From Pelatocladus maniniholoensis HA4357-MV3 (GTDB lineage Bacteria; Cyanobacteriota; Cyanobacteriia; Cyanobacteriales; Nostocaceae), in contig JAHHHW010000093.1 in NCBI GenBank assembly GCA_019359115.1, positions 1 through 56,913 of the forward strand: a DNA stretch of 56,913 bases, given 5' to 3'. Positions 3,113 to 56,913 of the stretch are shown one piece after another. Under the pieces are notes generated by a model. The model did not search any database. It was not told where the DNA came from and worked only from the letters and a program-made list of their open reading frames with translations. Numbering within the stretch: the first letter of the stretch is position 1; every line of letters begins with the position of its first letter. A program made the position numbers and the translations under genes.

Positions 3113-3319
3113 GGTTTTTATAATAGCTTGTCTAGGTTTTTAGCTTACCAAATCTGGGACATCTTTGGAAAAAGACGAGATTAGCCTCAAACACTGGTAA
3201 CGCATTTCACCAGAGTTGCAGCAGCTTGTATAGATGCATTGTTAGTGCGAATCACAAGTAACAGCAAGATAATTATGGATTCACTTAAGTTTATTTCCCT
3301 AACATATAGTAATGTCAAG

Positions 3320-3651
3320 GCAGAAGTTGCCACAGGCTGCGCGAAACACGCAAACGTGAAAGCGGATGTTACTGCAAGGAAAGCAGAAGTTGCTACAGGC
3401 TGCGCGAAACACGCAAACGTGAAAGCGGATGTTACTGCAAGGAAAGCAGAAGTTGCTACAGGCTGCGCGAAACACGCAAACGTGAAAGCGGATGTTACTG
3501 CAAGGAAAGCAGAAGTTGCTACAGGCTGCGCGAAACACGCAAACGTGAAAGCGGATGTTACTGCAAGGAAAGCGGAAGTTGCTACAGGCTGCGCGAAACA
3601 CGCAAACGTGAAAGCGGATGTTGCTGCAAGGAAAGCGGAAGCTGCTACAGG
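3320..3651. repeat. 63-bp minisatellite, five full copies plus a partial sixth
   Basis: Five consecutive near-identical 63-bp units start at 3320, 3383, 3446, 3509 and 3572, followed by a 17-bp partial copy at 3635-3651. Each unit is itself three related 21-bp blocks beginning GCAGAAGTT, GCGAAACAC and GCGGATGTT. As the unit is a multiple of three, several frames stay open on both strands. The + frame that opens at 3239 would read heptapeptides such as AEVATGC, AKHANVK and ADVTARK. None has a convincing start or known domain, so I annotate DNA repeats, not a gene. Confidence 0.9.
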
Positions 3652-52943: not shown

Positions 52944-54386
52944 ATGTGGTCTGAATTAACACTAGCAATCGCTCACATCAATATTCCTGCTGATTGGCTC
53001 GGCATCAGAGTAGTCAAAGAAACATTGTTTCATCGTGCTGTTCGTGATGGCTTACCCCAACGCCACGGCAAATCTGCCACCACAGGAGCCATGCTAGAAG
53101 TCATGGTTAACGGCTGTATTGGCTATGCAGCAACTAATTCTCTCCAACTAACAAGTTTACAAAATGCTGCCAAAAAGGCGTATCAACAAGCACTCGCAGT
53201 TCAACAATGGTGGATACATCCGTTTAAAGCTGCTAGCGAACGTCCTAGAGTAGTTGGTGAATACGTTTCGCCATTTCTTGAGCCACTAGATGCTCTAGAT
53301 ACTAAGGAAATTAACGATTTGCTAGTCCGTATTTGCCAAACCCTCAAAGTTTCCGAGCAAATCGTCAAAACTACGGCTGGTGCAAATACAGGCGAACGAG
53401 AAACATGGTTTGTCAGCAGCAACGGCTCAGAAGTTTATCAAAAATTTCTGTTTCTCAGTACCCATTATGGAGCGATCGCCCAAGATGGAGCGATCGTCCA
53501 ACAACGCACCAACAACGGCTGGGAAGCCAATTATTTCCAAGGAGGTATGGAATTACTCGAACCAGACAATCTTTGGCAAAAAGTGCAGCAAATAGGAGAG
53601 GGCGCAGTAGAACTTTTAACAGCACAAGAATGTCCAACTACACGCACTAATTTAGTATTAGCCCCAGACCAAATGATGCTACAAATTCATGAAAGTGTGG
53701 GACATCCCCTAGAATTAGACAGAATTTTAGGTGATGAACGTAACTACGCTGGTGGTAGCTTTGTCCACAAAAATGATTTTGGGGTTTTGGTGTATGGTTC
53801 TCCCCTGATGAATATCACTTTTGACCCCACTGTACCTGGTGAATCAGCTAGTTATGGTTACGATGACACTGGTGCTGTCGCCACACGAGAATATTTAATC
53901 AAAGAAGGTTTGCTATTGCGGGGTTTAGGTAGTTTAGAAAGCCAAAAAAGAGCAGGTATCCCAGGAGTAGCTTGTGCGCGTGCTTGTTCTTGGAATCGAC
54001 CCGCAATTGATCGCATGGCAAACTTAAATTTAGAACCAGGTAAAGCTTCGTTTGAGGAAATTATTGCTGACATAGAACACGGCGTTTACATGGAAGCTAA
54101 TCGTTCTTGGTCAATAGACGATCGCCGCTATAAATTTCAATTTGGTTGCGAGTACGCTAAATTAGTTGAAAACGGAAAATTAACCAAAACCTTGCGTAAT
54201 CCTAACTATCGAGCTACGACTCCAGAATTTTGGCACAGCTTAACCAAAATTGGAAACTCCTCAACCTGGGAAATGTACGGTACTCCTTACTGTGGTAAAG
54301 GAGAACCAAATCAAGTTATTTGGGTAGGACATGGTTCACCCGTTTGTCTATTTACCAACGTCGAAGTATTCGGCGGCGATACGTAA
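52944..54386 (+). CDS. tldD: TldD-family metalloprotease subunit
   Basis: 480 residues of the TldD/PmbA (U62) family. The Zn motif HESVGH (HExxxH) is at 249-254, and VGHGSPVCLFTNVEV near the C-terminus carries the other conserved Cys. TldD works with a non-catalytic partner (TldE) on small peptides, including modified ones such as microcin B17 and antitoxin CcdA. The next gene encodes such a partner. The ATG at 52944 is preceded by a heptanucleotide repeat and no Shine-Dalgarno sequence; the next Met is 50 residues later, so the start is secure. Confidence 0.92.
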   Translation: MWSELTLAIAHINIPADWLGIRVVKETLFHRAVRDGLPQRHGKSATTGAMLEVMVNGCIGYAATNSLQLTSLQNAAKKAYQQALAVQQWWIHPFKAASERPRVVGEYVSPFLEPLDALDTKEINDLLVRICQTLKVSEQIVKTTAGANTGERETWFVSSNGSEVYQKFLFLSTHYGAIAQDGAIVQQRTNNGWEANYFQGGMELLEPDNLWQKVQQIGEGAVELLTAQECPTTRTNLVLAPDQMMLQIHESVGHPLELDRILGDERNYAGGSFVHKNDFGVLVYGSPLMNITFDPTVPGESASYGYDDTGAVATREYLIKEGLLLRGLGSLESQKRAGIPGVACARACSWNRPAIDRMANLNLEPGKASFEEIIADIEHGVYMEANRSWSIDDRRYKFQFGCEYAKLVENGKLTKTLRNPNYRATTPEFWHSLTKIGNSSTWEMYGTPYCGKGEPNQVIWVGHGSPVCLFTNVEVFGGDT

Positions 54387-54661
54387 AAATTATTAGGGGT
54401 GTAAGGGTATAAGAATGTAAGGGTGTAGGAATTTATGAAACGATGATTATATTCATCACTCATTGCTTTATAAAAAACCTACACTTGTTGCTCCTTGTCC
54501 TGTTTGTCCTCCTTGTCCCCACCACCTGCTACAACGCGGGGGACCCACGCAACGCAGTGGCTCCCCTTGTCTCCTCAATCCCCGTTACCCCTCATCCCCT
54601 CCAGTGGCCCCCACCTGCCCCTTATCCCCAGAGGGGACCCCTACCTTCCCCAATCCTCATT
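54387..54661. other. Spacer between tldD and its partner
   Basis: A C/T-rich stretch (CTTGTCCTCCTTGTCCCC-like) that keeps an upstream reading frame open by composition only. It holds GGGTGTAAGG words. No gene seen. Confidence 0.5.
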
Positions 54662-56008
54662 ATGAACAACCAGGAACTCACTGCTTTAGAAATCAGCTTT
54701 AACCAACTGATTGATACTTTATTGCTTAAAAAACTAGCAACTGAAGAATTTACTGTCAGATTAAATAGCGAACGCAGTCAATTTACTCGCTTTAATCATG
54801 CCAAAGTTAGACAAACTGGTTTAGTGGCTGATGGCTGGATTGACCTAAGTTTAATACAAGGCCAGCGCAGTAGTTTTAGACAAATTCCTTTTACTGGAAA
54901 TTGGGAAATCGATTGGGAAGTCACATATCAAGCTTTGCAAGAATTACGCGCAGAACTTCCTTTTGTACTTTTAGATCCTTATTTAGTATTGCCATCAGGA
55001 ACTAATACTAGTCGAGAAGTATATTCTGGTAATTTATTGACTGAAGAAGCAGTAGTATCAAATATTTTAGAATCAGTCCCAGAATTAGATTTTACAGGTT
55101 TGTATGCTGGCGGAGTTGTAGTTAATGCTTATGCTGATTCTCTAGGACAAAAACACTGGTTTGCTACTGATTCTTTTACCCTAGATTATTCTATATTTAA
55201 CAGCGAAAGACAAGCTGTTAAAGGTATATTTGCAGGTAGCGATTGGCATCAACAAGCTTATATCAATAAAATTCAAGAAGCAAAAAAACAACTAAAATTA
55301 CTGGCTCGTCCAGTTAAGCAGTTACCACGGGGACAATATAGAACTTATTTTGCCCCAGAAGCGGTTGACAACTTATTAATGATGCTTTCTTGGGGTGCTA
55401 CCAGTGAAGCTGATTTACAACAAGGAAATAGTGCTTTAGCTGCTCTTTCGCGTCAAGAAAAACAGCTTTCTTCTAAGTTTAATCTCAAAGAAAACTTTCA
55501 ACGAGGAACAGTACCACGTTTTAATGAATGGGGAGAAATGACAGCCCTGGAATTACCAATAATTACTCAAGGAAGATTAGTCAATACCTTGATAAATTCT
55601 CGTACCGCCAAAGAATATCAAAAAACTCCTAACGGTGCTAATAGTCATGAATCTTTGCGATCGCCAGAAGTAAATCCGGGGAGTTTAGAATTTGATCAAA
55701 TTCTGCCAAATTTGGATACAGGATTATATGTATCAAACTTACATTATTTAAATTGGAGCGATCGCCCCACGGGTAGAATTACAGGTATGACGCGTTATGC
55801 CTGTTTTTGGGTAGAAAATGGCGAAATCATCGCACCCATAGAGAATTTGCGGTTTGACGATAGTCTTTATCGTTTTTGGGGTGAAAATTTACTCGATTTC
55901 ACCAATTTTCAAGAATTTATCCCCGAAGTCGGAACTTATGAAGGTCGGCAACTGGGAGGTAGTATGGTTCCTGGGATGTTGGTGGAAGATTTTACTTATA
56001 CATTGTAA
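54662..56008 (+). CDS. TldE/PmbA-like partner protein
   Basis: 448 residues from ATG 54662 (MNNQELTALEISFNQLIDTL). The frame is open to 54443, but the added part is low-complexity Pro/Leu sequence from the repeat-like spacer. The TldD fold is seen (RFNHAKVRQTGLVADGWIDL near 43-62, EMTALELPIITQGRLVNTL near 300-318), but the HExxxH motif is absent, as expected for TldE, the non-catalytic half. Length is close to E. coli PmbA (450). Downstream of tldD by 275 bp, likely one unit. Confidence 0.85.
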   Translation: MNNQELTALEISFNQLIDTLLLKKLATEEFTVRLNSERSQFTRFNHAKVRQTGLVADGWIDLSLIQGQRSSFRQIPFTGNWEIDWEVTYQALQELRAELPFVLLDPYLVLPSGTNTSREVYSGNLLTEEAVVSNILESVPELDFTGLYAGGVVVNAYADSLGQKHWFATDSFTLDYSIFNSERQAVKGIFAGSDWHQQAYINKIQEAKKQLKLLARPVKQLPRGQYRTYFAPEAVDNLLMMLSWGATSEADLQQGNSALAALSRQEKQLSSKFNLKENFQRGTVPRFNEWGEMTALELPIITQGRLVNTLINSRTAKEYQKTPNGANSHESLRSPEVNPGSLEFDQILPNLDTGLYVSNLHYLNWSDRPTGRITGMTRYACFWVENGEIIAPIENLRFDDSLYRFWGENLLDFTNFQEFIPEVGTYEGRQLGGSMVPGMLVEDFTYTL

Positions 56009-56335
56009 GGTAATGATCTGTATCAACTATTTCACAAAAATTATCCTTTCATGTAAAGATTAAAATAAATGTTGAGTTTCTGTGATGGTGCAGACCTGTA
56101 GGTGTTTTACATGGAGACTCAATTTTTATGCCTGAAAGCCTTACCTGTTCTGGGTTTGAAGCATTTACATAAAAATAGAGGTTCGCGCAATGTCTAAAAC
56201 TCTTCCCAGTAAAGCATTTGAGCCAATTTTTTATTATGCACTCTTGACAGTGCGATCTCTCAAACGCTATATTTACTCCAGGTCTGCACCACTGAACCTT
56301 GAAAACCAAATACAGCAAGGCTACTGGATTGAGCA
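56009..56335 (+). promoter_or_regulatory. CRISPR leader region
   Basis: AT-rich sequence directly before the first repeat. Repeats end in ATTGAAAC, the usual 5' handle of processed crRNAs, so transcription is rightward and this side is the leader. It contains GAGGTTCGCGCAATG near 56181-56195 and CTGAACCTTGAAAAC near 56292-56306, segments I associate with cyanobacterial leaders, and a 13-bp inverted repeat (56086-56098 and 56279-56291). Frames on the minus strand are shadows. Confidence 0.65.
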
Positions 56336-56789
56336 GTTGCAACTAACATTAATCCCTATTAGGGATTGAAACTTACCCTTCAATTGAAAGGCCTTATGAC
56401 AGAACGGGTTGCAACTAACATTAATCCCTATTAGGGATTGAAACATGAAACTGACGGCATTACTAACTTGCGCGATCGCGTTGCAACTAACATTAATCCC
56501 TATTAGGGATTGAAACTCTTTTTCTAAGAGATAATCAACAACCTCTTGGTTAGTCATTGTTGCAACTAACATTAATCCCTATTAGGGATTGAAACATAAA
56601 ATCTTTCAGCAAATACATCCACAAATTTTAATGTTGCAACTAACATTAATCCCTATTAGGGATTGAAACTATTAAATAATAAGACGTGACTTTATTCTCA
56701 AACTCAAGTTGCAACTAACATTAATCCCTATTAGGGATTGAAACCATATCTTTGAATGTACTCTTCACAAGAAAACCATGTTGCAACTA
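56336..56789 (+). CRISPR. CRISPR array, six full repeats and a broken seventh
   Basis: 37-bp repeats start at 56336, 56408, 56480, 56559, 56633 and 56708. They are identical: GTTGCAACTAACATTAATCC at the start, an AATCCC/GGGATT stem in the middle and GATTGAAAC at the end. Spacers are 35, 35, 42, 37, 38 and 35 bp. A seventh repeat begins at 56780 but keeps only GTTGCAACTA before IS630-like sequence begins. The repeat style fits type I or III systems of cyanobacteria; no cas gene is in the window. Confidence 0.98.
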
Positions 56790-56913
56790 TAGCGTTTACC
56801 GGTCTAATGAAGTACATTTATTAAGATAAAGCTGTGCATCTCCTCAAGGAGAAAAATGAAACCATATTCCCTCGACTTTCGTCAAAAAATACTTGATACA
56901 TATTTAGAAGGTG
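56790..56913 (+). mobile_element. IS630-family element, left end, cut by the window edge
   Basis: Begins immediately after the TA at 56788-56789 of the seventh CRISPR repeat. IS630/Tc1-mariner elements insert at TA, which matches. 66 bp of terminal sequence (starting TAGCGTTTACCGGTC) precede the transposase start. The right end lies outside the window. Confidence 0.8.
56856..56913 (+). CDS. IS630-family transposase, N-terminal fragment
   Basis: ATG 56856 with AAGGAG 4 nt upstream. The 19 visible residues MKPYSLDFRQKILDTYLEG match the opening of IS630 transposases, the first helix of the DNA-binding helix-turn-helix. The gene continues past the window, so whether it is intact is unknown. Confidence 0.82.
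   Translation, partial: MKPYSLDFRQKILDTYLEG

Follow-up and report, generated by a model that had tools for sequence, protein, structure and literature searches.

A CRISPR array split by an IS630-type element, and a probable exchange of array flanks, in Pelatocladus maniniholoensis

Where is the other half of a CRISPR array that runs, within its seventh repeat, into an insertion element and then off the end of a contig? The window (the whole stretch of 56,913 nucleotides analysed here) is the entire contig C93 of a draft genome of 6.70 Mb in 167 contigs, and it terminates 124 bp into an IS630-type element. We consider it very likely that a type I-D satellite array, now divided between contigs C93 and C95, received this element and also took part in an inversion of ~88 kb, by recombination with another array of the same repeat type. 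The features of the window on which this reading draws are as follows:

52944..54386, + strand: TldD/PmbA-type metallopeptidase gene in the leader-side flank, block T (Pfam PmbA_TldD domains 1–3)
54443..56008, + strand: second TldD/PmbA-like gene, beside the leader (Pfam PmbA_TldD_3rd, E 1.2e-25)
56083..56335, + strand: CRISPR leader of A/Z type, homologous to the 11 other leaders compared
56244..56273, + strand: sigma-70-like promoter in the leader, TTGACA-18-TATATT, predicted from 11 of 12 consensus positions
56336..56744, + strand: six intact, identical 37-nt repeats (GTTGCAACTAACATTAATCCCTATTAGGGATTGAAAC) with spacers 1–5, from repeat comparison
56745..56779, + strand: spacer 6, the last before the element
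56780..56789, + strand: first 10 nt of repeat 7, GTTGCAACTA, ending in the target TA; the rest is on the minus strand of C95
56790..56913, + strand: left end of the IS630-type element, beginning TAGCGTTTACCGG and cut by the contig end; 100% identical over 121–124 bp to five other contig ends
56790..56816, + strand: left terminal inverted repeat; 21 of its 27 positions agree with those of the right end (by eye)
56856..56913, + strand: start of the transposase reading frame, MKPYSLDFRQKILDTYLEG, resembling by eye the transposase start MKPYSLDFRKKIFDTYLSGG of locus L090

Regular identical repeats, unique spacers (35–42 nt in length) and a leader in front mark the window sequence as a CRISPR array. 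Repeat 7 begins on schedule: its first base, 56780, lies 72 nt after the start of repeat 6. An earlier note, made from the letters of the window, had read this repeat as matching the others for exactly GTTGCAACTA (56780–56789) before giving way to unrelated sequence, with an IS630 transposase start 66 bp on; the sequence confirms the first statement, and a transposase-like ATG at 56856 the second. The same note allowed each repeat two more TA steps besides the one at the break, which is one too few: there are four, at positions 9, 15, 22 and 25, so three more. Also present is an 83-aa open frame on the minus strand (56321–56572), in which FQSLIGINVSCN is repeated; it runs through the repeats and is probably a spurious frame made by the array itself.

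When the 12 leaders are aligned, that of the window groups with G109_A, G109_Z and G057_Z (support 0.993), G109 and G057 being, with G004, the three congeneric genomes compared. A promoter scan of 56000–56913 returned one site against a shuffle mean of 3.3, so that the scan alone is no evidence for a promoter; support for the predicted one comes from the near-identity of this stretch, judged by eye, in 10 of the 12 aligned leaders. An inverted pair, TGGTGCAGACC (56086–56101) and GGTCTGCACCA (56276–56291), also lies in the leader, whose sequence from the second arm onwards, in the direction of the array, varies little among the 12; possibly the two arms are binding sites for a regulator or for the adaptation machinery. 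The −10 region of the leader contains AAACGCTATA (56262–56274), with the same ten bases as the element's right end plus the target TA (compare 56785–56797), and this match is probably a coincidence.

Both ends of the element are found elsewhere in the genome, always at contig ends. Its left end (the first 121–124 bp) occurs at six places, with 100% identity, and its full right end at four, a count that leaves out five 33-bp matches of 88% that we took for other elements. Because both ends occur only at contig ends, and in several copies, the end of C93 is best explained as a failure of assembly at a multicopy element. Six left ends to four right ends is an uneven balance, short of two right ends. 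That several copies have identical ends suggests that the element may have spread recently.

One contig end supplies what the window lacks. Read on its minus strand, the end of C95 presents, in this order, the element's right end, TA, ACATTAATCCCTATTAGGGATTGAAAC, a 33-nt spacer, a repeat, a 34-nt spacer and a repeat; a LuxR-type response regulator gene is next after the last repeat. When one TA is removed, the C93 half and the C95 half together make exactly one perfect repeat. TA precedes all six left ends and follows all four full right ends, and with TA at all ten ends and a repeat that is restored by the loss of one TA, the proposal of an IS630-type insertion at the repeat's TA, with duplication of that TA, is upheld. 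It had further been predicted that the distal half would resume beyond the element as TA followed by ACATTAATCC, and this is found on C95, with two further spacers; a right end, a TA duplication, the remainder of the repeat and more spacers were to be sought beyond 56913, and the C95 end has them all, so that neither of the outcomes by which the note was to be refuted came about. We infer that C93 and C95 adjoin through one element, which is spanned by no read or single contig and whose interior, in this genome's own copy, was not recovered. The array as it stood before the insertion thus comprised nine repeats and eight spacers, six of these spacers now lying on the leader side of the element and two beyond it.

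Since the assembly does not span the element, one might suppose instead that C93 and C95 are not neighbours and that two arrays were each hit by an insertion of their own. This we regard as very improbable: the same repeat TA would have to be struck twice, each time leaving only the complementary half, and no other IS-bounded half-repeats were found. Among the unpaired right-side repeat halves in the genome, only that on C95 abuts the element; the other unpaired halves, on C90, C167, C23 and C108, are terminal, degenerate or variant repeats.

The element itself has the features of the IS630 family, namely TA at every full end and terminal inverted repeats in this genome and, in a close relative rather than in the genome's own copy, HTH and DDE domains in two overlapping frames: in L090, from Nostoc edaphicum, these frames match HTH_Tnp_IS630 and DDE_3. 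The element is 1031 bp long in L089 and 1030 bp in L090, and its ends match, at 86%, those of elements annotated as IS630 family transposase on two plasmids of Nostoc. The genome under study offers 124 bp of each end; the transposase piece in the window is too short for a homology search, and the piece at the right end, of 36 residues, gave no domain match. We see no distinctive difference from the family, and only the insertion site is unusual. The left end has at least a partial match in 63 of 192 family genomes, this one included, many of them only over the terminal 27 bp, and none in the three congeners included in that search. The matches to these 27 bp only, 93% identical in many family genomes, are perhaps related IS630 elements or MITEs.

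A further result emerges when the flanks of the two halves are followed into the congeners. We label the tldD/pmbA genes as block T, the histidine kinase and LuxR-type regulator of C95 as R, hisB/fabI as X and the aspartate-kinase-like gene lysC as Y. In G109, T–leader A–17 repeats–X lies at 3287–3306k and R–19 repeats–leader B–Y at 3360–3387k, so arranged that arrays A and B are convergent, ~88 kb apart. Here, C93 carries T–leader A, C95 carries R, and C21 carries Y–leader B–20 uninterrupted repeats–X; the last 4 kb of C93 correspond to G109 3287–3291k, the last 17 kb of C95 to 3360–3380k, and C21 to 3306–3293k plus 3381–3387k. Relative to G109, then, T-A-X and Y-B-R have become T-A-R and Y-B-X: the trailer-side flanks have been exchanged reciprocally, and each breakpoint falls at an array. 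The Y-B-X join lies within one contig, and the T-A-R join follows from the presumed adjacency of C93 and C95. Each leader has kept the genes upstream of it: the leader on C21 falls outside the A/Z group, with the B/C-type leaders. The two halves of the array appear from these comparisons to belong to loci that are separate in related genomes, a point that the earlier note had missed.

Which arrangement is the older one can be judged best for R and Y. These are neighbours in all three congeners: in G109 and G057 an array separates them, in G004 a stretch of 4.4 kb that contains no array. A tree of one gene, lysC, pairs the genome studied here (G000) with G004 (0.983) and G109 with G057 (0.991), so that G000 is not at the base. 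Because R and Y are joined in all three congeners, and in view of the lysC tree placement, the genome studied here is, as far as gene order and this tree indicate, the derived (rearranged) one for R-Y. Outside the genus, a response regulator of 67% identity lies near lysC in one of 20 genomes (G005), and the other 19 have no match of >50% identity in the 11–12 kb compared; with one match in 20, R-Y is mainly a feature of the genus, and its polarity therefore rests on the three congeners and the one-gene tree.

The other blocks tell of further re-pairing. The parental T-A-X arrangement is seen in G109 only, T being without an array in G057 and G004. Were G057 taken as the reference instead of G109, at least two exchanges are needed. 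Within an array the crossover is bounded only between the leader and the trailer flank, because the relatives have no spacers in common with it, and the draft does not carry the inverted segment in one piece. A block that we call W flanks array C on the trailer side in both G109 and G057; here it is on C90, where two lone repeats, one intact except for its last base and one partial, flank ~0.6 kb beside it (C90:15166–15866; L018:5167–5867). This site looks like the remnant of an array that took up other sequence.

The sequence of events that we favour would begin with two arrays of one repeat type in inverted orientation. Recombination with the second of these would have inverted ~88 kb, before (or possibly after) the insertion, an order that we infer; exchange would have occurred between repeats, and an inversion is the expected product because the arrays are convergent. 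The leader-side half would then derive from the tldD/pmbA locus and the far side from a two-component-system locus that is linked to lysC in congeners. A copy of the IS630/Tc1-mariner-type element, ~1.03 kb in relatives, would have entered the TA at positions 9–10 of repeat 7, duplicating it. Spacers 1–6 would remain behind the leader, and spacers 7–8 would lose it, unless read-through from the transposase serves them.

Could the element itself have driven the inversion? Multicopy IS elements can mediate inversions. ISLjo2 provides an example in the available part of one report (PMC3080392). Copies in both arrays, in opposite orientation, could have recombined with each other and inverted the segment between them, and an IS copy does sit exactly at one of the two junctions. 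We nevertheless hold this to be unlikely, bearing in mind that the reciprocal junction on C21, between array B and X, consists of 20 uninterrupted repeats without the element, and that only one IS-bounded left and one IS-bounded right half-repeat were found in the genome. The second copy would have to have been lost later, as recombination between neighbouring repeats could achieve; a single insertion into one array is simpler than IS–IS recombination.

The inversion between arrays must also be set against the general mobility of these chromosomes. Synteny blocks in the genus are 2–35 kb long (flank sums use same-orientation matches at >80% and 200 bp, and block comparisons matches at >80% and 400 bp, with blocks of >1.5 kb). 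Between G109 and G004, one of five block edges in the stretch compared lies at an array (array A), in a count that omits one block edge coinciding with the start of that stretch, and array B is crossed without a break. From 52919 C93 is collinear with G109, G057 and G004; synteny with the stretches of these genomes that were compared stops at ~52919, away from any array, and C93 has a second rearrangement edge there. An enrichment of breaks at arrays is therefore unproven, because synteny also breaks away from arrays and the sample, at five edges, is small.

It could accordingly be argued that the element simply entered an array that was already there, that the differing positions in relatives reflect unrelated rearrangements and that CRISPR repeats had no role: rearrangement is common in the genus, and four of the five G109–G004 block edges are off arrays. 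We find this improbable. Compared with G109 the exchange is reciprocal, and both of its breakpoints fall between a leader and a trailer-side flank. Moreover, the array that precedes X is a different one in each of three genomes (A in G109, Z in G057 and B in the present genome), and W, which follows array C in two genomes, follows T in the third, G004, with one decayed relic repeat at the join. It is on this reciprocity and repeated re-pairing that the case for a role of the arrays rests.

The repeats themselves bear on such a role. Arrays A, B and C all carry one and the same repeat in this genome; in G109, B and C share another variant, and in G057 the repeats of B and C differ by one base. 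A lone relic repeat on C23 is the variant of G109 A and G057 Z. The pattern looks like concerted evolution among the arrays of a genome, and the likeness of repeats within a genome suggests that exchange between arrays may be ongoing; co-adaptation to one Cas6 could contribute to it. Whether the dispersed type I-D arrays of the genus are recurrent recombination hubs, at which leaders keep their upstream genes and trailer segments are re-paired, we judge to be an even question. The shuffling of flanks matters more than the IS insertion: it suggests that a genome with several arrays of identical repeat pays for them in chromosome stability, and it could account for array loss, merging and homogenisation. 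Taken alone, the insertion is a commonplace event at an uncommon site, of use as an experiment of nature on whether distal spacers persist once they are parted from the leader.

The suggestion that arrays with this repeat might be hot targets for the element gained no support. A junction of repeat start and IS end was found in one of 217 family genomes, this one, using a pattern (exact repeat start GTTGCAAC, up to 8 bases, TA, exact IS end) that is blind to other repeat variants and to most other insertion points. The proposed search of relatives for the element within CRISPR repeats came out negative, with an array beside it at none of 26 loci that carry the element or its end (24 genomic and 2 plasmid), some of which, such as L040, L042 and L050, start where a contig starts or ends, with next to no flanking sequence on one side; the same scan recovers the array in both split halves in this genome (L025 and L029). 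The sole weak array signal among the relatives' loci, at L059, is a 14-bp tandem repeat. In this genome, one of the element's six left ends sits in an array. Under uniform insertion, the chance that at least one of six copies would fall in 3.4 kb of arrays is ~0.3%, a figure for a single event recognised only after the fact. At 0.093 TA per base, the array is only slightly richer in this dinucleotide than the window (0.073). The 18-base junction has seven matches across a collection of genome contigs, with about seven estimated by chance at equal base frequencies, and none of the seven has a cyanobacterial title, one being named only 'bacterium'.

How does this locus compare with those described by others? 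DeBoy et al. in 2006 reportedly treated large-scale inversions and CRISPR together in Thermotogales, to judge by their title. That study is cited for a suggested role of CRISPR in chromosomal rearrangement in the accessible part of PMC1896005, and that of PMC5576922 speaks of CRISPRs at one locus as possibly having recombined. Our hybrid array is a further example of the CRISPR-linked inversions that this title reports in Thermotogales; it comes from a different phylum, and here trailer-side flanks were exchanged, each leader keeping its upstream genes. Insertions of IS elements and prophages into CRISPR loci are mentioned in the available text of PMC10359306, in which the word 'IS630' is absent. 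The likeness is that a mobile element interrupts a CRISPR-Cas locus; the difference is that an IS630-type element here occupies the TA of one repeat in a cyanobacterial satellite array. Among the titles and opening abstract lines of the literature matches listed, there was no report of an IS630 element inside a cyanobacterial repeat, nor of flank shuffling at cyanobacterial arrays.

The assignment to type I-D comes from a second array in the genome. Upstream of the array on C167 are genes matching Cas10d (a 1102-aa frame), Cas7d, Cas5d, Cas6d, Cas4 and Cas1, and the window repeat is identical to 18 of the 19 repeat copies there. No cas genes were recognised in the parts of the flanks of the window array that were examined, and this array looks, from its repeats, like a type I-D satellite. 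It resembles cyanobacterial DR5 (type I-D) arrays in that its repeat ends in AATCCCTATTAGGGATTGAAAC, as do repeats listed alongside the array of phage N-1, which the accessible part of PMC4916379 calls DR5 (type I-D); it differs from DR5 satellite arrays in being split by an IS.

On the far side, the half-repeat on C95 still folds into a stem and retains its 3' tag, and the transposase gene has the orientation of the array. Because gene and array are codirectional and the half-repeat keeps stem and tag, distal crRNA could arise by read-through from the transposase gene; the detachment of distal spacers, which the earlier note proposed, is unproven. No promoter-like site was reported at the junction with the element's right end, though by eye a TATAAC is formed there.

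No spacer is common to this genome and the arrays of its relatives when all spacers are compared. What the comparison did return was a single match of 13 bp linking this genome to a relative, a single match of 12 bp linking two G109 arrays, and two longer matches, each between neighbouring spacers inside one array (G109_C8 and G057_C176). Searches against phages returned nine records for each of the two array stretches, with no protospacer identified among the matches; some lie under features annotated as 56 bp repeat units, and the matches look as if they fall on repeats. The matching records (H10–H27) include the Nostoc phages YongM and N1 and several Microcystis phages; a published CRISPR array is carried by phage N-1, according to the part of PMC4916379 at hand.
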